NCBI RefSeq assembly: GCF_001550135.1
Contig: NZ_LRUE01000021.1
Span: forward strand, 125,434 to 189,433
From: Pseudoalteromonas shioyasakiensis
Lineage (GTDB): Bacteria; Pseudomonadota; Gammaproteobacteria; Enterobacterales; Alteromonadaceae
Length of the DNA stretch: 64,000 bases
Direction of reading: 5' to 3'
Under the pieces are notes generated by a model. That model was not told the origin of the DNA. It worked only from the letters and a program-made list of their open reading frames with translations, and did no database searches. The position numbers were made by a program, and so were the translations under genes. Below are positions 35,765-45,560 of this stretch, piece by piece. Each line of letters begins with the position of its first letter. The first letter of the stretch is position 1.

Positions 35765-37357
35765 TTAAGCTAAGTCAGACCATGCTAAATTGAATTTACG
35801 TAAGTATTTTTGTAATCGAGTTGAGTCATTGGCTTGTGCTTTTTTGGTACGACTCACATCAAATAATTCACGACCAGCTGAGGCCATGCTTGAATGCTGC
35901 TCACAGATACTAAGCACATAATTTAACTGAGCAATATCAAACTGATCTAAATTCGCTATTTGCTCTTCTGACAAATAGTGAGCAAGGCGATTAGACGCTT
36001 TAGGTTGCACATTAGATTGCCATGAGTCTTGTAACCGTGCGATTTCGTCATTAACATCAGTCACGGTAATACGCGAAGAGCTCGCTAAAGTACATAAACG
36101 AGTAATTGCAGAGCTTAAATCACGAAAGTTTCCCCGCCATACCGCTCGCTTCGACATAGCAAACTGCTCAAACAACTGCTTTGCTTCTTTATTGAATTGA
36201 ATTCGCTGCCCGGTTTTTTGCTCAAATAAACCCATTTCATAGTCAATATTGGCAGGTATATCTTCTTTTCTGTCTTTTAATGCCGGTAACTGATAGCTCC
36301 ACAAATTGATACGCGCTAATAAATCTTCACGAAACAGCCCTTTTTCGACTTCGGCTTTTAAATCTTTGTTAGTGCCAGCTATGAGTTGAAAATCACTCGC
36401 AACAGTTTGATCACTGCCCACTGGATGAAAGGTCTTATTTTCAATGGCATGTAACAGCATTGCTTGCTCTTCTAAACCAAGCTCGCCAATTTCATCTAAA
36501 AACAGCACACCATTATTTGCAGTGAGTAAGTAACCGCTTCGCTCTTTTTGAGCACCTGTAAAAGCTCCTTTTGTGTGGCCAAACAAAGCAGCCATGGCAT
36601 TTTCACCACGTAATGTGGCGCAGTTAACCGACACAAGCTCACCTTTTAAAATGGCGCGCTTCTTTTTCAGTTTATAAATTCTCGTTGCCAACTGGCTTTT
36701 ACCAGCTCCCGTAGGACCCGTCAGAAGCATAGGATCATCTGAACGAATAGCCACAACTTCAATCTGCGCAATCAACTTATTGAATGCACTGTTTTTAGTT
36801 TGAATACCGCCTTTTAAAAATGCATTACCTTCTAAATGCTCTTTATCAAAACGAGTGGCAAGTTGATCATATTTAGATAAGTCCAAATCAATAATTTGAA
36901 TCTTACCTGTCGCTTTATTTTGATTATGCTTATTGGGTGATGTTTGAATTAAACGCCCAGGAAAATGACCACTCTCGGTTAATAAGAAAATACATATCTG
37001 CACAACATGGGTGCCAGTCGTGATATGAAAAAAGTAATCGTGCTGATCAGCATCAAAACGCTGTTGATGGCACCAATCATAAAGCTTGGCGTAAACCTCT
37101 TCAAAATCCCAAGGGTCTATAAAGTTAATATTTTCAAGGCATACCGTGGTTTCTGGGGAAACTGACTCAATATCTACTGCAACATTATTCGCTAAACGCG
37201 AGCTATGAGTATCATGCATCATATACAGCTTATTAACGATGAACTCTTCTTGACTACATAAACTGACATTGGGTCGCCATCTTGCCCAACGATCAACACG
37301 CTTACCCACATAGTCTAATTGAGTTCCGAGAATACTCACCACAATCGTACTTTTCAA
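35765..37357 (-). CDS. rtcR: Sigma-54-dependent activator of RNA repair
   Basis: A protein of 530 residues. The N-terminal RtcR domain (about 1-180, with VVSILGTQLDYVGKRVDRW and HITTGTHVVQICIFLLTESG) is a CARF-like ligand-binding fold that senses RNA-damage products. A central AAA+ domain follows with Walker A GPTGAGKS (214-221), the sigma-54 contact motif GAFTGA (264-269) and Walker B region VLFLDEIGEL. The C-terminus holds the DNA-binding helices (SMASAGRELFDVSRTKK). It is divergent from the slipin-rtcB-rtcA operon, whose leader has a sigma-54 promoter. In E. coli RtcR stays off until RNA damage relieves its N-terminal domain. Confidence 0.95.
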   Translation of the reverse strand: MKSTIVVSILGTQLDYVGKRVDRWARWRPNVSLCSQEEFIVNKLYMMHDTHSSRLANNVAVDIESVSPETTVCLENINFIDPWDFEEVYAKLYDWCHQQRFDADQHDYFFHITTGTHVVQICIFLLTESGHFPGRLIQTSPNKHNQNKATGKIQIIDLDLSKYDQLATRFDKEHLEGNAFLKGGIQTKNSAFNKLIAQIEVVAIRSDDPMLLTGPTGAGKSQLATRIYKLKKKRAILKGELVSVNCATLRGENAMAALFGHTKGAFTGAQKERSGYLLTANNGVLFLDEIGELGLEEQAMLLHAIENKTFHPVGSDQTVASDFQLIAGTNKDLKAEVEKGLFREDLLARINLWSYQLPALKDRKEDIPANIDYEMGLFEQKTGQRIQFNKEAKQLFEQFAMSKRAVWRGNFRDLSSAITRLCTLASSSRITVTDVNDEIARLQDSWQSNVQPKASNRLAHYLSEEQIANLDQFDIAQLNYVLSICEQHSSMASAGRELFDVSRTKKAQANDSTRLQKYLRKFNLAWSDLA

Positions 37358-37505
37358 AATATATCCTTATAGATAGAAACTGTATCTATTTAAATACCAA
37401 GTAACACTATCGTCAAGTACCTCATCACCCAACACAAACTACAAAAATATAATAAAAACATAAAAATCAGTGCGTTAGAAACTAAAAAACACTCTTTTTT
37501 AGTTG

Positions 37506-37521
37506 TGGCACAGCTCTTGGA
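37506..37521 (+). promoter_or_regulatory. Sigma-54 promoter of the RNA-repair operon
   Basis: TGGCAC at -24 and TTGGA at -12, with correct spacing, differ from consensus only in the second base of the -12 GC. Transcription would start near 37531, exactly where the structured leader begins. Confidence 0.8.
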
Positions 37522-37530
37522 ATAGAGAAG

Positions 37531-37601
37531 TGTGATTAATTAGGAGTGATTCAAATATCACCCTGGTGCGTTACACACTGTGAACACGTATGCCTAATCA
37601 C
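37531..37601 (+). ncRNA. Putative structured 5' leader RNA (three-way junction)
   Basis: A closing stem GTGATTA (37532-37538) with TAATCAC (37595-37601) encloses two hairpins: GTGAT/ATCAC (37546-37561) and GTT-A-CAC/GTGAAC (37570-37585). It begins within a base or two of the predicted sigma-54 start and ends six bases before the first tRNA-like element. Folded by hand; no Rfam family is assigned. Confidence 0.45.
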
Positions 37602-37606
37602 AAAAC

Positions 37607-37679
37607 TATTAATGTAGCTCAGAGGTAGAGCAGCGAAATGATTTCGTCGGTCATGGGTTCGATTCCCATCTTAATACCA
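37607..37679 (+). ncRNA. tRNA-like RNA element 1, short anticodon loop
   Basis: The parts of a tRNA are present in order. D arm: GCTC, loop AGAGGTA, GAGC. Anticodon arm: GCGAA, loop ATGAT, TTCGT. Variable loop: CGGTC. T arm: ATGGG, loop TTCGATT, CCCAT. The acceptor strands TATTAA(T)G and CTTAATA pair with one bulged T and are followed by an encoded CCA. The anticodon loop has only five bases with a 5 bp stem (or seven with a 4 bp stem, then lacking T33), so this is unlikely to decode. It lies in the leader of the rtcBA-type operon and may be a mimic of damaged tRNA or a repair substrate. Confidence 0.65.
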
Positions 37680-37748
37680 TAAGTAGCTCAAACAGGTAGA
37701 GCACCAAAACCAATTTGGATGTTGCGGGTTCAAATCCCGCCTTAGTCA
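37677..37748 (+). ncRNA. tRNA-like RNA element 2, short anticodon loop
   Basis: This follows element 1 directly. D arm: GCTC, loop AAACAGGTA, GAGC. Anticodon arm: CCAAA, loop ACCAA, TTTGG. Variable loop: ATGTT. T arm: GCGGG, loop TTCAAAT, CCCGC. Only four acceptor pairs remain (TAAG with CTTA), and there is no CCA. The five-base anticodon loop is shared with element 1, which argues against random decay of two tRNA genes. The element probably acts as RNA within the operon leader. Confidence 0.6.
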
Positions 37749-37910
37749 AAATCGTAACTTTAAATGTTAGTAAGTCGTTGTTTGCGCTGACTGATAAACG
37801 CTTAAGCATGAACGATAACAGCAAGCCGGATGCTCCCTGTTATTGCGACGCCCAAAGCCTTTTTCAGATAACAAATACACACTTGCTAACAATCAATAAG
37901 GAAATAGAAC
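37749..37910 (+). other. Leader segment between tRNA-like elements and slipin
   Basis: An untranslated segment of 162 bases. A short open frame (from 37715, or ATG 37808, to 37963) crosses it and overlaps slipin, but it has no good Shine-Dalgarno and no recognised domain, so I do not call it a gene. The GGAAATAG just before 37911 serves slipin. Confidence 0.4.
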
Positions 37911-39065
37911 ATGTTAAGAAAAACACAATTAGTAGCAGAGAACCAAAGAGTGCTCGTTTTTAAAGACCAGCAACTAACAGACGTGTTAACGCCAGGAAAG
38001 CATCGTTATTGGGATTTTCAGAAGCAGCTTGAGTTTGTCACCTTTGATATTAACTCACTGTATTTCTCAGAGCGAAATACTGAACGTTTGTACCGCAATA
38101 ATCCAATCTTGCAACAGCATATAAGTCATTGGAAACTTGAGAACAACGAACTAGGTATGTTGTATGTTGATGATTTACTACAAGGGATCGTCGCTCCTGG
38201 TGAGCACTTATATATTTGGCAAGATGCAGGGGCTATAAAACTTGAAAGAATTACTCTCAACAGCACTCAAGCGGTGCCTGAGCAATTATTAAATTTAGTT
38301 AATCGAGCTGGTGCAAATAGCGCAACTCGCTTAATTAGAAGCGAAAAAACAGTCGCAATCAAACCGATCGCCGAGTTTAAAGTCGCGAAAGAGCATGTAG
38401 GCTTACTTTACATTAACGGCCATTTTATTGGGAAGTTGCAGCCTGGTATTCATGCCTATTGGCAATTTAACCATGATATTGAAGTGAAATGTTATGACTG
38501 TAGAACACAAAGCGTAGAAGTATCTGGGCAAGAAATTCTCAGCAAAGACCGTGTTAGCCTACGCATTAATTTGACTGCCAATATCAAGCTGATGGATGCT
38601 GAGCTTGCAGCAAAGAGCGTAGATAAATTGGATGAATTCATCTACAAAACTCTACAACTAGCACTCAGAGAAGCGGTTGGTACAAAAACGCTCGATGATA
38701 TCTTATTAGATAAGTTGTATATCAATGAAACAGTGAAAGAGCTGGTGATTGAACAGCTGAAGGAGATTGGTATTGCTCTATCTGGCGTTGGTGTGAAAGA
38801 CATTATTTTACCGGGCGAGATGAAAGCCATTTTAAATCAAGTAGTCGAAGCGCAAAAAGCAGCTGAGGCAAATGTAATAAAGCGACGTGAAGAAACATCA
38901 GCAACACGCAGCTTACACAACACCGCGAAAGTAATTGAGAACAACCCGACGCTAATGCGCCTTAAAGAGTTAGAGGCATTAGAGAAAGTCGCAGAAAAAA
39001 TAAATAACTTAACTGTTTATGGCGGCCTTGAAGGGCTAATGAGCGGGGTCGTAAAAATAGCCTAA
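37911..39065 (+). CDS. Slipin (SPFH/band-7) protein of the RNA-repair operon
   Basis: A protein of 384 residues. The SPFH region (about 160-300) includes EHVGLLYINGHFIGKLQPGIHAYWQF, CYDCRTQSVEVSGQEILSKDRVSLRI and the helix EAVGTKTLDDILLDK; a helical coiled-coil tail with QVVEAQKAAEANVIKRREETSATR follows. The N-terminal 150 residues hold a second, partly repeated SPFH-like segment (VLVFKDQQLTDVLTPGKHRYWDF). It lacks the N-terminal membrane hairpin of typical slipins, so it may be soluble or peripheral. Slipins recur in RtcR-controlled operons of many bacteria, but their job there is unknown. It is the first protein-coding gene after the tRNA-like leader. Confidence 0.88.
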   Translation: MLRKTQLVAENQRVLVFKDQQLTDVLTPGKHRYWDFQKQLEFVTFDINSLYFSERNTERLYRNNPILQQHISHWKLENNELGMLYVDDLLQGIVAPGEHLYIWQDAGAIKLERITLNSTQAVPEQLLNLVNRAGANSATRLIRSEKTVAIKPIAEFKVAKEHVGLLYINGHFIGKLQPGIHAYWQFNHDIEVKCYDCRTQSVEVSGQEILSKDRVSLRINLTANIKLMDAELAAKSVDKLDEFIYKTLQLALREAVGTKTLDDILLDKLYINETVKELVIEQLKEIGIALSGVGVKDIILPGEMKAILNQVVEAQKAAEANVIKRREETSATRSLHNTAKVIENNPTLMRLKELEALEKVAEKINNLTVYGGLEGLMSGVVKIA

Positions 39066-39093
39066 CAGGCTAGGACGAGTAAGGAATCAAATT

Positions 39094-40320
39094 ATGTGTA
39101 ATAACTACAACACAATCGAACAACAAGGACAGGTACCTATAAAGGCATGGACAAAAGGCGTACCGTTTGAAGATGCAGCTATTGCTCAATTAAATAATAT
39201 TGCGCAAATGTCGCTAGTTCATTCTCATATCGCGGTCATGCCAGATGTTCACATGGGCAAAGGCGCCACAATAGGTAGCGTCATTCCCTCTGTAGATGCA
39301 GTGATCCCCGCAGCGGTAGGTGTTGATATTGGTTGCGGCATGGTTGCAACTAAAACAACGTTAACGGCTTCGCAACTGCCCGATAATCTGGCGGCAATTC
39401 GTCATGCGTTTGAAGCTGCGGTACCACATGGTCGAACGGGCCGAGGTAGAGGGGCTCGCGACAGAGGTGCTTGGCATAATATTCCTGATGTTGTTGCAGG
39501 TGAGTGGCAAAAACTTGAGAAGCGGTTTGAAAAAATCTGCGCTAAGCACCCTGCAATTAAAAACAGTAATCATGTAAATCACCTAGGTACGATGGGCACA
39601 GGCAATCATTTTTTAGAGCTCTGCCTAGATGAAAACAATGCTGTTTGGATCATGCTGCACTCAGGTAGCCGAGGAGTTGGTAACCGCATAGGCACTTACT
39701 TTATCGAGCTGGCTAAAAAAGAGATGGAGCGTCATCAAATCAACTTACCTGATATGGATCTTGCGTATCTGAAAGAAGGAAGCGAATACTTTGATGACTA
39801 TGTTGAGGCTGTGGAATGGGCGCAAGATTTTGCAGCTAAAAACAGAGAGATCATGATGTTTAACGCTATCAAAGCGCTTAAAAAGCAAATACCTATCGCT
39901 TTTGAAACCGCGGAGCTTGCTGTTAACTGTCATCATAACTATATCTCGCGTGAGCATCACTTTGGCAAAGATTGTTTTGTAACACGCAAAGGAGCTGTAC
40001 GTGCACAAAAAGGTGAAATGGGGATCATTCCCGGAAGTATGGGAGCGCGCTCTTTTATTGTTCGCGGCTTAGGAAACCCAGATAGCTTTAATAGCTGTAG
40101 TCATGGAGCCGGCCGAGTCATGTCTCGTACAAAAGCTAAAAATGTCTTTAATATTCAAGATCAAATAGCGGCAACCCAAGGGGTAGAATGCCGCAAAGAT
40201 GCTGCGGTGATTGATGAAATTCCGCATGCGTACAAGGATATTGAAAAGGTTATGGCAGCACAGCAAGACTTGGTTGAGGTTGTGCATACGCTAAAACAAA
40301 TAGTCTGCGTAAAAGGATGA
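39094..40320 (+). CDS. rtcB: RNA 3'-phosphate/5'-hydroxyl ligase
   Basis: A protein of 408 residues, the same length as E. coli RtcB. It joins 2',3'-cyclic-phosphate or 3'-phosphate ends to 5'-OH ends using GTP and Mn2+. Conserved motifs: HIAVMPDVHMGKGATIGSVI, the metal site VGVDIGCGM, GTGNHFLEL, HSGSRGVGN, the His-rich NCHHNY, IPGSMGARSFIVRG, and the guanylylated His at residue 337 (CSHGAGRVMSRTKA). It would religate tRNAs cut in their anticodon loops. It lies between slipin and rtcA, with 28 bp and a short overlap respectively. Confidence 0.97.
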   Translation: MCNNYNTIEQQGQVPIKAWTKGVPFEDAAIAQLNNIAQMSLVHSHIAVMPDVHMGKGATIGSVIPSVDAVIPAAVGVDIGCGMVATKTTLTASQLPDNLAAIRHAFEAAVPHGRTGRGRGARDRGAWHNIPDVVAGEWQKLEKRFEKICAKHPAIKNSNHVNHLGTMGTGNHFLELCLDENNAVWIMLHSGSRGVGNRIGTYFIELAKKEMERHQINLPDMDLAYLKEGSEYFDDYVEAVEWAQDFAAKNREIMMFNAIKALKKQIPIAFETAELAVNCHHNYISREHHFGKDCFVTRKGAVRAQKGEMGIIPGSMGARSFIVRGLGNPDSFNSCSHGAGRVMSRTKAKNVFNIQDQIAATQGVECRKDAAVIDEIPHAYKDIEKVMAAQQDLVEVVHTLKQIVCVKG

Positions 40321-40322
40321 TA

Positions 40323-41351
40323 ATGAACTATTTAATAATCGATGGAGCACAAGGTGAAGGCGGAGGGCAAGTACTTCGCACCGCCCTCACCTTATCAATG
40401 TTAACCAAGCAAGCCATTGAAGTTGTTAATATTCGGGCCAAGCGAAAAAAGCCTGGCCTGTTACGCCAGCACCTAACCTGTGTGTTAGCAGCACAACAAA
40501 TCTGTGATGCCGAAACAGCAGGAGTTGAACTAGGCTCAAACCATATTCGCTTTGCGCCTAAACAAATAAAAGCGGGTGATTATCACTTTGCGATTGGCAC
40601 AGCAGGCAGTACAACTCTTGTATGCCAAACTGTATTACTGACATTAGCGACAGCAAAGCAGCCCTCTACCATAACCTTTGAAGGTGGCACACATAATGGC
40701 ATGTCACCTTCACTGTGCTTTTTTGAGCACTGTTATTTGCCAGCTTTAGCAAAAATGGGGGTGTATTGTGAGCTTACAGTTACCAAGTATGGCTTTTACC
40801 CTGCCGGTGGTGGCAAATGGCAGTTAACCGTTTACCCGTGTGAAACATTAAAGCCCTTTGCGCATTTTGCACCGCCAACTAAGGATGCCAAAAAGTCGAT
40901 TAAAGTACTTGTTAACAAGTTACCGGGGCATGTTGCGAAGCGTGAAATTAGCACTGTAAAACAAAACCTTGGTTGGACAAACGCTGAAACCACGATCACT
41001 CAAGTAGAAAGTATTGGAGCAGGAAACAGCTTGCAGCTACATATAACATCAGACACTCATAACAGTATTTTTGAAGTTATTGGTCAACATGGCGTTGCAG
41101 CACAAAAGGTGGCTCTGAAAGCCGTAGAACAAGTTACACAATTTACCCAATCAGCAGCGGCAGTAGAAGAACATCTGGCAGATCAGCTGCTTTTGCCATT
41201 AGCTTTGGCCGGTAAAGGCGAGTTCAAAACCAATGAACCAAGCTTGCACAGCTTAACCAATGCAGAGGTCATAAAAACGCTTTTGCATGTAGAGATAACG
41301 TTTACTCAGCTTGATGATAACCTTTGGCAGGTATCATTAACTGATACCTAA
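40323..41351 (+). CDS. rtcA: RNA 3'-terminal phosphate cyclase
   Basis: A protein of 342 residues. It converts RNA 3'-phosphates to 2',3'-cyclic phosphates, using ATP through a His adduct. The start LIIDGAQGEGGGQVLRTAL is the family signature; LRQHLTCVLAAQQI, GTAGSTTLVCQTVL, FEGGTHNGMSPS, FYPAGGGKW and the active-site His in VEEHLADQLLLPLAL follow. The ATG at 40323 has AAAAGG at good spacing; an ATG at 40317 overlapping the rtcB stop is too close to that site. Together with RtcB it forms the classical RNA-repair pair. Confidence 0.95.
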   Translation: MNYLIIDGAQGEGGGQVLRTALTLSMLTKQAIEVVNIRAKRKKPGLLRQHLTCVLAAQQICDAETAGVELGSNHIRFAPKQIKAGDYHFAIGTAGSTTLVCQTVLLTLATAKQPSTITFEGGTHNGMSPSLCFFEHCYLPALAKMGVYCELTVTKYGFYPAGGGKWQLTVYPCETLKPFAHFAPPTKDAKKSIKVLVNKLPGHVAKREISTVKQNLGWTNAETTITQVESIGAGNSLQLHITSDTHNSIFEVIGQHGVAAQKVALKAVEQVTQFTQSAAAVEEHLADQLLLPLALAGKGEFKTNEPSLHSLTNAEVIKTLLHVEITFTQLDDNLWQVSLTDT

Positions 41352-41366
41352 TTAGGATGATCGGCA

Positions 41367-42623
41367 ATGGAAAACACATTAAAACATGTTTATTTAGTCG
41401 GTGGTGCAGTTCGCGACAAATTGCTAAACAGAGCGGCAGCTGATCAAGACTTTGTTGTTGTGGGTGAAACACCAGAAACCATGTTAGCCCTAGGCTTTGA
41501 AACTGTTGGTAGAGATTTTCCAGTATTTTTACATCCAACCACCAAGCAAGAATATGCCCTCGCTCGCACTGAACGAAAGCAAGGTCGTGGCTACAAAGGG
41601 TTCACGGTGAATGCCAGTACCAGCGTAACTTTAGAAGACGACCTTGCGCGACGAGACTTAACTATCAATGCAATGGCGATGAGTGCCGATGGCGAGCTTA
41701 TAGACCCATTTAACGGCCAACAAGATTTAAATAACAAAGTACTTAGACATACATCAGCCGCATTTGCTGAAGATCCATTACGTGTTTTGAGAGTAGCTCG
41801 ATTTTTAGCTCGTTTTGGTGAAAGCTTTAGTATACACCCGGAAACCAAGGCATTAATGATGCAAATACACCAACAAGGTGAATTAGCTTATTTAACGCCA
41901 GAACGGGTTTGGAAAGAAACCGAAAAAGCACTTGCTGAGCCTCACCCTGAGCTTTACTTCAAGACGTTGTATGGTTTAGGTGTGTTTCCAGAAATAGATG
42001 CAATGAGTGGTGTTCCCCAACCAAAAGAACACCACCCTGAGGGCGATGTTTACACCCACACACTGTTAGTTTTGCAAAGAGCGGCTCAGCTAAATTTTGA
42101 TGTAGAAACTCGCTTTGCCGCATTAACGCATGATTTTGGCAAGGCGACGAGCTTTGAGCTAAACGGTAATTTACATGGCCATGAACAACGCGGCGTGACA
42201 GTTATCAAGGCGTTTTGTCAGCGTTTAAAAGTGCCTAAACGGTTTTATGAGCTGGCAGCATTAACCAGTGACAATCATACGCGTTGTCACAAAATCGCAA
42301 AGCTAACACCAAAAACATTACATAAATTACTTGTCGACAAGCTAAATGCGCAAAATAAGCCTGCGCGGTTTTTGCAGTTTTTGGATGCGTGTCAGTGTGA
42401 TGCGCAAGGACGGGGACCAAGCTTTATACATCGGCCTTATGCGCAACGAACACTTGCACTGGATTTAGTAAAACAACTAAACAAACTAAATAAAAAAGCA
42501 CTTGTGCAACAAGCAATACAGCAAGGTAAAAGCGGCATAGCCATCGGAAAAGAAGTTCGCGAAGCAGAAATAAAGCAACTACGAGATTACCTCACAGAGC
42601 AAAGTAGTAAGGAAACAAAATGA
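41367..42623 (+). CDS. cca: CCA-adding tRNA nucleotidyltransferase with HD domain
   Basis: A protein of 418 residues, slightly longer than E. coli Cca (412). It adds or restores the CCA end of tRNAs with CTP and ATP. The nucleotidyltransferase core shows YLVGGAVRDKLL and DQDFVVVG with the metal Asp pair, then EYALARTERKQGRGYKGF, RRDLTINAMAM and EDPLRVLRVARFLARFG. An HD phosphohydrolase-type domain follows (HTLLVLQRA, ALTHDFGKATS), as in the multifunctional gammaproteobacterial enzyme. Embedded 15 bp after rtcA and overlapping rlaP, it is probably made on damage to rebuild tRNA 3' ends. Whether a housekeeping cca exists elsewhere is not visible here. Confidence 0.95.
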   Translation: MENTLKHVYLVGGAVRDKLLNRAAADQDFVVVGETPETMLALGFETVGRDFPVFLHPTTKQEYALARTERKQGRGYKGFTVNASTSVTLEDDLARRDLTINAMAMSADGELIDPFNGQQDLNNKVLRHTSAAFAEDPLRVLRVARFLARFGESFSIHPETKALMMQIHQQGELAYLTPERVWKETEKALAEPHPELYFKTLYGLGVFPEIDAMSGVPQPKEHHPEGDVYTHTLLVLQRAAQLNFDVETRFAALTHDFGKATSFELNGNLHGHEQRGVTVIKAFCQRLKVPKRFYELAALTSDNHTRCHKIAKLTPKTLHKLLVDKLNAQNKPARFLQFLDACQCDAQGRGPSFIHRPYAQRTLALDLVKQLNKLNKKALVQQAIQQGKSGIAIGKEVREAEIKQLRDYLTEQSSKETK

Positions 42624-43435
42624 ATAACACAACAGCACACTCAGCAATCGATGACAGTGTAAGAGCTGAAATAATGCGACGCATAAAAACGGCAGAAGCA
42701 GAACATAACGTTAAAGTGTTATTTGCTATTGAGTCGGGTAGCCGAGCATGGGGATTTGCAAGTCCTAACAGTGATTATGATGTGCGCTTTATCTATGCGC
42801 ATGCTAAAGATTGGTATGTAGCAATTGATGTTGAAGAGCAAAGAGATGTAATTGAATACCCAATCGTCGATGAAATCGATATAAATGGTTGGGATATTCG
42901 TAAAGCACTCAAACTATTCAGCAAATCAAATCCCGCGTTTATTGAGTGGTTACAATCCCCCATAGTGTATGTTGATGATGGCTTTTTTGCTGCACATGCA
43001 AAGCGGCTAATGCCACAGATAGTGTCATCTCATAAAGGCATTTATCATTACCTGCATATGGCAAAAGGTAACTTTAGAGAGTATCTGAAAAAAGAGCGCG
43101 TTCCGCTGAAAAAATACTTTTACGTATTACGACCACTACTGGCGATTATGTGGCTCGAAAAATACGATGAACCAGCTCCGATTGAGTTTGATAAACTAAG
43201 GGAGCTTGTCAAAGAGAACCTTGCATTGGATGCTGCGATTTCAGATTTGCTCGCCCGAAAAAGGGTAAGCTTAGAAAAAGAATACGCGCCAGCTGTGCCT
43301 GTAATTAATGAGTTTATCGAAGCAGAGTTAACACGGCATGAAAACTACACAGCTAACGTAAAGAAGAAAGTCGTCGATTTTGATGCTTTAAATCAGTTGT
43401 TTAAAGAAACATTAGCAAGATACAGTGAATCCTAA
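42620..43435 (+). CDS. rlaP: RlaP-type nucleotidyltransferase of RNA repair operons
   Basis: A protein of 271 residues. The polymerase-beta-like nucleotidyltransferase motif is VLFAIESGSRAWGFASPNSD followed by YDVRFIY, giving the GSxxxG and DxD-type catalytic elements; the rest is helical (DINGWDIRKALKLFSKSNPAFIEWL). This is the family labelled RlaP in Pfam, associated with RNA ligase operons. The exact reaction is not established; adding or altering nucleotides at broken RNA ends is the usual proposal. It overlaps the cca stop by four bases and is the last gene of the RtcR operon, with its stop codon inside the terminator loop. Confidence 0.85.
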   Translation: MNNTTAHSAIDDSVRAEIMRRIKTAEAEHNVKVLFAIESGSRAWGFASPNSDYDVRFIYAHAKDWYVAIDVEEQRDVIEYPIVDEIDINGWDIRKALKLFSKSNPAFIEWLQSPIVYVDDGFFAAHAKRLMPQIVSSHKGIYHYLHMAKGNFREYLKKERVPLKKYFYVLRPLLAIMWLEKYDEPAPIEFDKLRELVKENLALDAAISDLLARKRVSLEKEYAPAVPVINEFIEAELTRHENYTANVKKKVVDFDALNQLFKETLARYSES

Positions 43436-43454: not shown

Positions 43455-43775
43455 CTACAAGTATTGATTTACGACATCAACTAAAGTTTCAATGAGTGCC
43501 TCATCCATATATTGGTACTCATCGGGTATATCGAGTACCTGAATCGGCTTGTATTGTAATAAACGGCTAAACCGCGCTTTAATGCGTTGTTTATGCTTAT
43601 GTTCCATCACAAAAATTATATCTGCCCAATTAATATCAGCAGTTGTTACCGTGTGCCTTGCTCGTGGGCTTGTGCCTGCAGAGCGGGCTTTAATGCCATT
43701 GTATTGGTTGTATACCTTTTCAGCCGTTGGGCTACGCCACTGGTTACGGCTACATATAAACAGTAAGTTTTCCAT
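43455..43775 (-). CDS. Small low-molecular-weight protein tyrosine phosphatase-like protein
   Basis: A protein of 106 residues. The phosphatase loop [10 protein letters not shown] keeps the Cys-x5-Arg-Ser/Thr pattern close to the N-terminus ([13 protein letters not shown]), and a late Asp-rich segment [11 protein letters not shown] can supply the general acid. It belongs to the short tyrosine phosphatase-like family (COG4551 type). The start at 43775 lies inside the end of prfH (26 bp overlap), so it is co-expressed with rtcB2 and prfH. Its substrate is unknown; in this setting a phosphoprotein or a phosphate on damaged RNA are both conceivable. Earlier in-frame starts would only add prfH-overlapping residues. 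Confidence 0.8.
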
Positions 43776-44412
43776 GTCCTTTTCCTTTGTGAGTCTGGCT
43801 AAACTCAGGGCCCTTAAACGTACGAATCGGATTACCCCGTTGCAGCTCATTGTGTTGTTGCCACCGCGACTTTTGCTGCTGGCTTGCAGCCTGCTGAGCT
43901 TGCTCTGCCAGTTTTTGCATTAGCAAAGCTCGGGCTAAACGCTTATTCGCATGCTGACTTCTTTCACTCTCTACGCGAACAGTAATTCCTGTCGCAACAT
44001 GGGTAGCACGAACAGCCGAATCAGTGGTGTTTACATGTTGGCCTCCCGCGCCACTTGCACGGCATTGCTGAAAGCGGATCTCGCTATCAAAAGTTTGCTC
44101 TGCTATTTCAAATAGTTGACCGCCAAAGTACCAGTTTTTACGCTTATGCCTTGCTCTGAATGGGCTTTGACAAACCCACAACATCGAGCCATGCCATTGC
44201 TGCGCAAACTGTTTTAAAATTTGCGGCTCAGCACCGGTTAATTCAAGCAATAACGATTTGTAGCAGCCTGAAAGCTCAGCTTGCTCTACTGCAAGAGTAT
44301 TCACCTTAATAGCTAACGCTTTAGCATCACACTCAAGGCGCTTAACAGCCATTGCCACCGCTTTACAGCACTCTAAAGGACCCGCCCCTGACGATAATTG
44401 CACTAAGATCAT
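43750..44412 (-). CDS. prfH: Peptide chain release factor homologue PrfH
   Basis: A protein of 220 residues, shorter than RF1/RF2 because the codon-recognition domain is replaced by a different N-terminus. The catalytic GGQ motif is at residues 123-125 in [22 protein letters not shown], followed by a basic tail for the peptidyl-transferase centre ([16 protein letters not shown]). PrfH is reported to recognise ribosomes whose 16S rRNA has been cut in the decoding centre and to release the stalled peptide, so that the partner ligase can reseal the rRNA. The ATG overlaps the rtcB2 stop (ATGA); a GTG two codons upstream is less likely. Confidence 0.93.
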
Positions 44413-45560
44413 CCGCACGTTCCTTGTGTTTTAAAGGTAAGCACAGGCTTTAATTTGGCAATTACAGTAACCAGCCCAGCATCAACAAGGTCATCAATAA
44501 CTGTTTGGCAGTCTTTGTAAGCTTGTGGTGCTTCATCATAAAGCAGCGTTTTATCATTACAGATCACCCTGCTACCAAACGCAGTGCGATATAAATCTTC
44601 CTTTTTAAACTTGTGACTCAAACGGCCTTGGCATTCTCCACGCTTCCATTTGCGACCAGCGCCATGTGCAAGGGAGCGTAAGTTTACGTTTTGCTCAGCC
44701 GTTGGCTTAACTAAGTAACTGTAATCACCGCGAGAGCCAGGGATCATCACAGCCCCTTGATCGCTAGGTGTAGCGCCTTTTCGATGTAACCAGCCTGCTT
44801 GTCCTGCAATCTGTGATTGACTTACAAGGTTATGATTTACATCTAAAACCTCTTCGCCACCAGCGCGAATAGCTTGTAAAAAACGCCGTGCGATCAGTTC
44901 TCGGTTTAACTGAGCCCAACGCAGTGCTTCGTCATGTTTGGCCATATAATCTGTAAAGGCACCACTTTCTACCTCAAGGCCATCATGGTTATGCTCTGCA
45001 ATATGCTTAACTAAAATAGCTTGTCCTAACCCTCTAGAGCCAGAATGCACCAATAGCTGCAATTGTTTAGATTGTAGGCCTAAAGCAAGCAAGGCTTGTT
45101 GATCAAACACCTCTTCAATCGCCTGAAATTCAGCGAAATGATTGCCACCACCTATGGTGCCAAGGGCGCTATCAAAACCAGTTTGTGTGATAGCTAGTTC
45201 ATGTTTTCGCTCGCTAATCAATGTGTGCCAACTTTCATCTAGCGGCAGTTCAACATCGCTTAAGCGTTTTGCGAGCTTATCTACATTTAACTTGGCTAAC
45301 TTAGTATTGGTTTGCCAAAGCGACATACCGCAGCCAATATCATTCCCCACTAAAGCGGGGTAAATTCTACCTTCTGTAAAAAAGGCTGCCCCAATGGGGT
45401 AACCTCGACCTGGGTGTAAATCGGGCATACCCGCTACAGCGTACATACCAGGTAATTCAGAAGTTTTAATTAATTGTTGTATTGCTAGCCCTTCAATCCA
45501 CGACTCTTTAGACGCAATAAGGCTAACGTTATCAGTAAGTTTTTGGACGGACTTGCCCAT
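44409..45560 (-). CDS. rtcB2: RtcB2-type RNA ligase paired with PrfH
   Basis: A protein of 383 residues, distinctly divergent from and shorter than the RtcB at 39094. Conserved ligase elements are [13 protein letters not shown], the metal site [55 protein letters not shown] and the guanylylation His in [15 protein letters not shown]. In known rtcB2-prfH pairs this ligase reseals 16S rRNA cleaved by ribotoxins such as colicin E3. The ATG has AAGGAA ten bases upstream. The 5' leader contains a small ORF and a cloverleaf-like fold. Confidence 0.93.

Follow-up and report, generated by a model that had tools for sequence, protein, structure and literature searches.

To our knowledge, YrlA is the only transfer RNA (tRNA)-mimicking RNA known in bacterial rtc RNA repair operons. 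The substrates of RtcB repair operons, and the reason why many of them carry slipin, a protein with an SPFH/Band_7 domain, are standing questions. According to the accessible part of one report, YrlA tethers Rsr through its basal stem, and the tRNA-like domain, which DusA and TruB modify, binds PNPase (PMC8394870). Here we analysed a stretch of 64,000 nucleotides from Pseudoalteromonas shioyasakiensis (contig NZ_LRUE01000021.1, positions 125,434 to 189,433 of the forward strand; hereafter the window), in which slipin heads an rtc operon and is preceded by two tRNA-like elements. Comparison of homologous loci indicates that these elements form the tRNA-like section of a larger, conserved RNA with several domains, located upstream of slipin in gamma- and betaproteobacteria. 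We propose, with our confidence evenly split, that it is a tRNA-mimicking non-coding RNA that would work with slipin in tRNA repair, analogous to the YrlA-Rsr pair without being YrlA.

The available portion of a study in Pseudomonas aeruginosa places the SPFH gene PaFlo8 in the rtc locus and reports key virulence and stress traits without pronounced change upon SPFH deletions (PMC13086221), and an excerpt of another lists PA4582 as a conserved gene of unknown function in the rtcB operon (PMC8619066). In Anabaena, TrcR is a repressor of rtcB and of an operon with 26 tRNAs, and the slipin alr0740 rises alongside in the trcR mutant, as described in the accessible sections of that work (PMC10272220); part of a second study records that the tRNA cluster, rtcB and alr0740 also changed, possibly through erythromycin (PMC9938897).

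The YrlA model (Rfam RF02553) aligns over 37627-37735 of the window, from the T arm of the first element through the D arm of the second, with 36.2 bits compared to a gathering cut-off of 69. Membership in the YrlA family is ruled out by this score and by the neighbouring gene. The original prediction for this DNA had likewise set the elements apart from YrlA-type RNAs, a view that holds, and no TROVE/Rsr gene was found in the genome. In a sample of 274 genomes of the class, the window's included, TROVE (PF05731) at E ≤ 1e-10 was matched in none, with a Deinobacterium control positive; Rsr is therefore not comparable as an alternative partner there.

The tRNA-like elements and their anticodon loops

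The RNA of the window spans 37533-37890 (~360 nt) and consists of a 5′ domain, a tRNA-like part and a long 3′ hairpin. The original prediction had correctly picked out the middle part, and had covered only that part of the larger RNA.

37533-37600, plus strand: 5′ domain, with a closing stem TGATTA/TAATCA, a hairpin GTGA-TTC..-TCAC and a second stem GGTGCG..CGTAxxCC
37607-37679, plus strand: tRNA-like element 1 (Rfam tRNA, ARAGORN and base-by-base reading)
37680-37744, plus strand: tRNA-like element 2 (Rfam tRNA and base-by-base reading)
37766-37890, plus strand: 3′ domain, a single long hairpin with the closing strands GTTAGTAAG/CTTGCTAAC (alignment of near relatives)

Both elements are confirmed as real, far above chance. 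The Rfam tRNA model (cut-off 29) matches element 1 with 44.5 bits (E 2.1e-7; 37608-37676) and element 2 with 41.2 bits (E 1.7e-6; 37680-37744), and the predicted tandem with five-base loops ATGAT and ACCAA is present; ARAGORN reports element 1 only, as tRNA-Ser(tga). Element 1 has an acceptor TATTAA/TTAATA with an additional pair G37614-C37670 and a bulged T37613, a D arm GCTC-AGAGGTA-GAGC, an anticodon arm GCGAA-ATGAT-TTCGT with the loop at 37638-37642, and a T arm ATGGG-TTCGATT-CCCAT. Element 2, which abuts it directly, has an anticodon arm CCAAA-ACCAA-TTTGG with the loop at 37709-37713 and a T arm GCGGG-TTCAAAT-CCCGC. Its acceptor is weakened to four pairs (TAAG/CTTA) and it lacks CCA, in line with the prediction of a weakened acceptor without CCA. 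The encoded CCA claimed for element 1 does exist at 37677-37679, but the two nearest relatives, L011 and L012, have CTA instead, and the CCA was dropped as a sign of charging because they lack it.

Compared to functional tRNAs, both elements retain the D arm, T arm and elbow, as judged by the Rfam tRNA score. A five-base loop takes the place of the seven-base anticodon loop with U33 in both, and neither has the combination of a seven-pair acceptor and an encoded CCA, although a CCA might be added by an enzyme. The 144-base stretch with both elements has a single match at E ≤ 0.001 in the 4.8-Mb genome, namely itself, so the elements are not a recent copy of a host tRNA.

Homologous loci came from two sources. 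A search of 148 order genomes gave 9, the window's own copy among them, and a slipin search across GTDB species gave 569, of which the best 80 were kept as named loci. The upstream sequences of these 89 loci were scanned by script, and about fifty leaders were also read by eye. The element finder ignored the acceptor and accepted an element when 3 or more of the 4 D pairs formed, together with 4 or more of the 5 pairs in both the anticodon and the T stem. The count leaves out eight near-duplicates (L008, L009, L011, L012, L026-L029) as well as the tRNA genes that lie farther than 560 nt upstream in L008, L009, L059, L063, L064 and L070; L002 was dropped in place of L011 for the acceptor pairing statistics. 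The finder returned 101 elements in 74 of the 81 non-duplicate loci; a control search downstream of slipin, where true tRNA genes also lie, gave 17 matches in 510 kb with both strands counted.

The body of the elements is well preserved, with U8-A9 in 100 and a D stem of GCTC/GAGC in 95 of the 101. Acceptor pairing reaches 0.77 compared to 0.61 in shuffles within the Alteromonadales/Vibrionales (the near group), and 0.78 compared to 0.44 in the distant group, in which both sides had changed in 198 of 483 cells. Across homologous loci, compensating changes preserve the stems, and the earlier claim of selection rather than decay stands for the arms. It fails for the five-base loop, which is not conserved in relatives, the loop spanning 2 to 20 bases over the 101 elements: among the 32 near-group elements, loops of 2, 3, 4, 5, 6, 7, 8, 9 and 20 bases occur in 1, 2, 2, 12, 4, 8, 1, 1 and 1, respectively, 21 of them being shorter than seven bases. 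Even within P. luteoviolacea, the loop measures 9, 8 and 9 bases (L024, L026, L027) on an unchanged stem. These drifting lengths rule out the five-base loop as a selected trait, and on this comparison the window simply shows two instances of a length that drifts.

In the distant group, 51 of 69 elements have a seven-base loop, with 17 different anticodons and U33 in 30 of the 51, and CCA follows 21 of the 69. Over all 59 seven-base loops, U33 occurs in 32 and A34 in 15; anticodons starting with A are little used by bacteria outside Arg. Across the aligned loci, anticodon identity and loop length are thus shown to be free of visible constraint, whereas the tRNA body is kept. As the body is retained while anticodon loop, acceptor and CCA drift, the RNA is most likely neither decoded nor charged. 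It most likely imitates the tRNA elbow.

The elements might also act as decoys, cleavage-resistant tRNA mimics that absorb anticodon nucleases, with the shortened loops of the Alteromonadales group escaping the cut. The 21 near-group elements with loops under seven bases fit such a role, and Hughes et al., in the accessible part of their paper, suggested competitive nuclease inhibition for YrlA (PMC7790460). However, the 51 seven-base loops of varied sequence among the other elements argue against it, and the large 5′ and 3′ domains are left unexplained. Moreover, anticodon nucleases are in general selective for loop bases, and these are not conserved in the elements. A decoy role is rather improbable to us.

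Ordinary tRNA genes also occur near the RNA. Arrays of 5 to 15 of them, for many amino acids and on the same strand, lie beside the RNA-slipin module in L032, L036, L038 and L053, resembling replacement tRNA sets. In L008, L009, L059, L063, L064 and L070, of which L064 and L070 closely match L008 and L009, tRNA genes lie just upstream of the RNA, suggesting possible co-transcription and tRNA-type processing. The elements might then be relics, i.e. replacement tRNA genes of the repair operon that are now decaying, in line with the neighbouring arrays, the CCA behind 21 distant-group elements and the fact that some elements score as real tRNAs (71.7 bits in L036). Such an origin is very improbable in our judgement, given the fixed place between conserved 5′ and 3′ domains and the compensated stems; the near-uniform D stem combined with free anticodon loops points to ongoing selection on the body. 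A maintained tRNA mimic, as we propose, is the reading pursued below.

The 5′ and 3′ domains of the RNA

The leaders follow a recurrent plan of a 5′ domain, one to three tRNA-like elements and a 3′ domain, and in many other loci the RNA is longer than the ~360 nt of the window. An alignment of the 5′ domain from 32 gamma- and betaproteobacterial sequences has 16 pairs, with 89.6% of cells paired compared to 66.6% in shuffles. Changes on both sides are found in 143 cells compared to 46.5 in shuffles, and are distributed over 13 of the 16 pairs; the covariation score of 0.70 (0.26 shuffled) was reached by 0 of 500 shuffles. The inner 11 pairs are 96.6% paired, compared to 26-50% in controls with slid partners. 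Since most of these sequences were picked by script on a paired first hairpin, and the structure was drawn from the same sequences, a search of unused loci with R1, the covariance model built from this alignment, is the fairer test. At E < 0.001, R1 matched 46 of 56 loci outside the model, some of them close relatives of model sequences, each time upstream of slipin on the same strand. The ten missed loci are L010, L054, L067, L072, L078, L080, L084, L086, L087 and L089. Among them, L084 comes to E 0.36, little upstream sequence is available for L054 and L089, and L067, L078 and L084 show a variant hairpin by eye; neither a 5′ domain nor a tRNA-like element was detected in L072, L087 and L089.

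The 3′ domain measures 124 or 125 nt in 13 near relatives, which were picked by eye and all share the closing-stem motif, and 25 of the 42 predicted pairs show a compensating change among them. The support for this domain is purely comparative: in a single-sequence test of the closing stem, only 28 of 82 loci exceed the best of 10 shuffles, and the window's own stem falls below it (12.5 compared to 13.0). As a whole, the RNA of the window folds moderately better than its shuffles (z -2.5, 2/100).

A small D-armless tRNA-like element is also seen in 38 of the 89 loci, for instance L033 and L038, ~230-550 nt upstream of slipin, as counted by a loose pattern with duplicates included. It consists of GG, a short hairpin such as CCGAAAGG, and then a T arm GGGG-TTCGACT-CCCC.

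Rfam searches of window positions 36000-40000 at E ≤ 5 returned tRNA, YrlA and a minus-strand Plastid-ycf2, the latter two below cut-off, and the 15 of the 89 loci that were searched at gathering score gave tRNA alone. In these searches, the non-tRNA parts of the RNA reach no Rfam family cut-off. A search of the full-text literature, in which most subscription papers were out of reach, found no description of a tRNA-like RNA beside slipin, so that a prior mention is possible. Altogether, the structured RNA upstream of slipin looks like an apparently undescribed RNA family.

Association of the RNA with slipin

The 5′ domain is present in 71 of the 80 named loci (29 being model sequences), and a tRNA-like element in 74. 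Gene order was counted from the genes around slipin, in flanks of up to 4 kb that are shorter on some contigs; the presence of the RNA was checked separately, with the 29 model loci (within L011-L090) counted as positive for the 5′ domain. Slipin comes right after a divergent rtcR in 27 loci, has rtcB/rtcA upstream on the same strand in another 27, lacks rtcR, rtcB and rtcA in its flanks in 22, and shows other orders in 4. The 5′ domain or a tRNA-like element precedes slipin in 26 of the 27 leader loci, 26 of the 27 loci behind rtcB/rtcA, 21 of the 22 rtc-free loci and all 4 others, and both are present in 19, 26, 19 and 4, respectively. The original description as an rtc operon leader is consequently too narrow.

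Co-occurrence in the 274 class genomes gives the same picture. RtcR was found in 8, slipin in 15 and R1 (at E ≤ 1e-4) in 13 genomes; 12 of the 13 carry slipin, and in the thirteenth the match is at the end of a contig. Both genomes that have RtcR but no slipin also lack R1, and R1 finds the 5′ domain in 7 of the 9 that have slipin but no RtcR match. At the slipin loci of this sample, 12 of 14 have tRNA-like elements, the window's own copy (L113) being omitted and one of the 12 already known as L003, whose genome reappears here as L112. In the order sample of 148 genomes, R1 at E < 1e-6 matched 7, all among the 9 slipin genomes; weak matches in 6 (~19-21 bits, E 0.001-0.006), none with slipin, were taken as chance.

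As judged from these loci and genomes, the RNA is shown to track slipin rather than RtcR, a link that is independent of operon position. A general role as rtc leader or RtcR ligand is ruled out by gene order and co-occurrence, and the ligand role raised in the original prediction is too narrow as well. A feedback in which cut tRNA-like halves act on RtcR as ligand or reporter could invoke the CARF domain of RtcR, which binds 5′ tRNA halves with 2′,3′-cyclic phosphate ends in the available part of one study (PMC7790460). It is hardly credible for an RNA whose 5′ domain persists in those 7 of 9 slipin genomes and is absent from both RtcR genomes that lack slipin. Slipin is thus a candidate partner of the RNA. 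In G240, a fragmented draft genome, a PhyH gene on the opposite strand lies between the intact RNA and slipin, which hints at a role in trans.

Slipin, the repair operon and related systems

The genes and signals around the RNA in the window are as follows.

35765-37357, minus strand: rtcR (RtcR domain and sigma-54 activator, from Pfam domains), divergent to slipin
37506-37520, plus strand: sigma-54 type promoter motif TGGCACAGCTCTTGG, read from sequence
37898-37902, plus strand: Shine-Dalgarno-like AAGGA preceding slipin, not included in the stem that closes the 3′ domain
37911-39065, plus strand: slipin (Pfam Band_7, predicted structure, hydropathy)
39094-40320, plus strand: rtcB RNA ligase (domain search)
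40317-41351, plus strand: rtcA RNA cyclase (domain search)
41367-42623, plus strand: nucleotidyltransferase with PolyA_pol head and HD domain, CCA-adding-like (domain search)
42620-43435, plus strand: RlaP, RNA repair pathway polymerase-beta family (domain search)

The transcript is expected to start near 37532, where the structured RNA begins. Within the 1 kb ahead of slipin, a loose pattern without a shuffled control picks out a similar sigma-54 motif in 27 of 30 loci among L002-L031 and in 11 of 59 among L032-L090. The slipin of the window shares 99% identity with that of P. gelatinilytica. Directly 3′ of the rtc operon, a second, distant RtcB and an RF-1 domain (PrfH-like) protein are encoded on the minus strand (43750-45560).

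The main rival to our proposal is a cis-acting leader of slipin, in which the tRNA-like and 3′ domains would sense the state of tRNA (free tRNA-binding enzymes or fragments) and control the stability, processing or translation of the slipin mRNA. The RNA lies on the slipin strand, nearly always directly upstream under any operon order; that of the window occupies the whole expected 5′ untranslated region, and tRNA-like elements are natural cutting sites of RNase P and RNase Z. By contrast, no terminator was seen on the plus strand of the window leader and the Shine-Dalgarno sequence of slipin stands outside the closing stem, so no ordinary attenuation or sequestration design is visible; ribosome-binding-site sequestration and a terminator role were discarded, as nothing of either was seen on the plus strand. 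The gene interposed between RNA and slipin in the single fragmented genome G240 also speaks against it. We regard a cis-acting leader as somewhat unlikely, yet as the strongest competitor of an RNA that works with slipin.

The AlphaFold model of slipin, built from 62 sequences, has a predicted local distance difference test score (pLDDT) of 84.4 and consists of three N-terminal five-strand repeats, an SPFH/Band_7 domain and a long C-terminal helix. No 19-residue window reaches a hydropathy of 1.6 in any of the 62 homologues, which makes a membrane segment unlikely, and slipin is probably soluble. Superposition placed residues 5-370 of the model on residues 323-718 of the vault protein MVP (Z 11.6, 252 aligned, RMSD 8.9), and Foldseek gave MVP a TMq of 0.50, the highest among the matches listed; the listed stomatin matches cover the SPFH part of slipin, none beginning before residue 118. 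Taken in isolation, the N-terminal repeats resemble the SPFH1 part of ordinary membrane SPFH proteins (Z 4.9-6.3) more closely than MVP (4.3 and 3.6), and had no Foldseek match in the PDB at E ≤ 0.001. At most, the predicted structure is suggestive of a vault-like layout.

The present comparison allows a mechanism to be proposed for the tRNA mimic and slipin. RtcR is activated by 5′ tRNA halves with a cyclic phosphate end, as stated in the accessible part of PMC7790460. In the window genome, cutting of tRNA would lead RtcR and sigma-54 to transcribe the RNA in one unit with slipin, rtcB and rtcA as well as the genes of the CCA-type enzyme and RlaP. Slipin might be held by the 5′ and 3′ domains, while the tRNA-like section might bind a tRNA-handling enzyme such as the ligase, the nucleotidyltransferase, a modification enzyme or PNPase. 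Acting in trans, the RNA and slipin could tether or scaffold the repair or disposal of tRNA, in the way that YrlA serves Rsr and PNPase.

Several observations weigh against this proposal. R1 has no match in 3 of the 15 slipin genomes of the class sample (G207, G390 and G401); the finder did detect tRNA-like elements in G390 and G401, and none in G207. The nearly constant position immediately upstream of slipin, on the same strand, fits a cis-acting leader equally well. Slipin itself is not basic, with a median isoelectric point of 6.1 and a net charge of -3 in the 62 homologues. The finder demanded paired D, anticodon and T stems, the acceptor figure alone being free of that selection, and the many seven-base loops and 21 CCA ends of the distant group mean that some elements may still be processed as tRNAs. 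In E. coli (L138, 5472-7925), a slipin-RlaP pair with a sigma-54-like motif TGGCACGCTTCTCGC has a reduced leader, in which a hairpin like that of the 5′ domain and a lone T arm are present, no D or anticodon arm is seen, and R1 finds no match; the tRNA body is therefore dispensable in at least one lineage. This pair lies between a DUF3811 gene next to rluF and lysC, chromosomal genes in a record labelled plasmid. Of 5426 complete E. coli genomes, 1617 contain 80% or more of this stretch, which makes one form of the system accessible to standard genetic tools.

An RNA that tracks slipin and not the regulator is a candidate partner for slipin, whose role thereby becomes testable. If the proposal is true, Rsr-YrlA is not the sole tRNA-mimicking RNA tied to RNA repair, and the elements would be a natural family of tRNA mimics with the anticodon released from selection and the body kept. 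In a further-reaching version, which we consider unlikely, slipin would be a soluble SPFH protein that forms a vault-like cage, joined by a large RNA of its own with one to three tRNA mimics. The resulting ribonucleoprotein would be induced by tRNA damage and would house or scaffold RNA repair by RtcB, RtcA, the CCA-type enzyme and RlaP. It would correspond to Rsr-YrlA, with slipin in the role of Rsr, and in function it would distantly resemble vaults and their vault RNA.

Among known systems, vaults (MVP with vault RNA) may share with the slipin model a layout of repeats, an SPFH-like domain and a long helix without a strongly hydrophobic segment. They differ in that MVP has nine repeats, compared to three in the slipin model, and a cage and RNA binding are hypothetical for slipin. 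Transfer-messenger RNA (tmRNA) is likewise a long RNA bearing a tRNA-like domain, but neither Rfam nor ARAGORN matched it in the window, and a charged acceptor is not expected on the slipin RNA. Genuine tRNA genes and arrays, such as the Anabaena trn operon or L-array, have the same cloverleaf body and Rfam tRNA score, and in Anabaena the tRNA cluster, rtcB and slipin respond together in the accessible parts of both studies (PMC10272220, PMC9938897). The slipin-RNA elements differ from them in their unconstrained anticodon loop, weak acceptors, mostly missing CCA and location inside a larger conserved RNA. YrlA shares with the slipin RNA the setting in an rtc repair operon under RtcR, the mimicry of tRNA and the kept D and T arms. 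However, the slipin RNA has extra 5′ and 3′ domains and slipin, not Rsr, as its neighbour, and it keeps the normal tRNA order, whereas the Rfam consensus of YrlA puts the T arm before the D arm. As a tandem of two tRNAs includes this permuted arm order, the tRNA-like domains of Y RNAs could stem from such a tandem.
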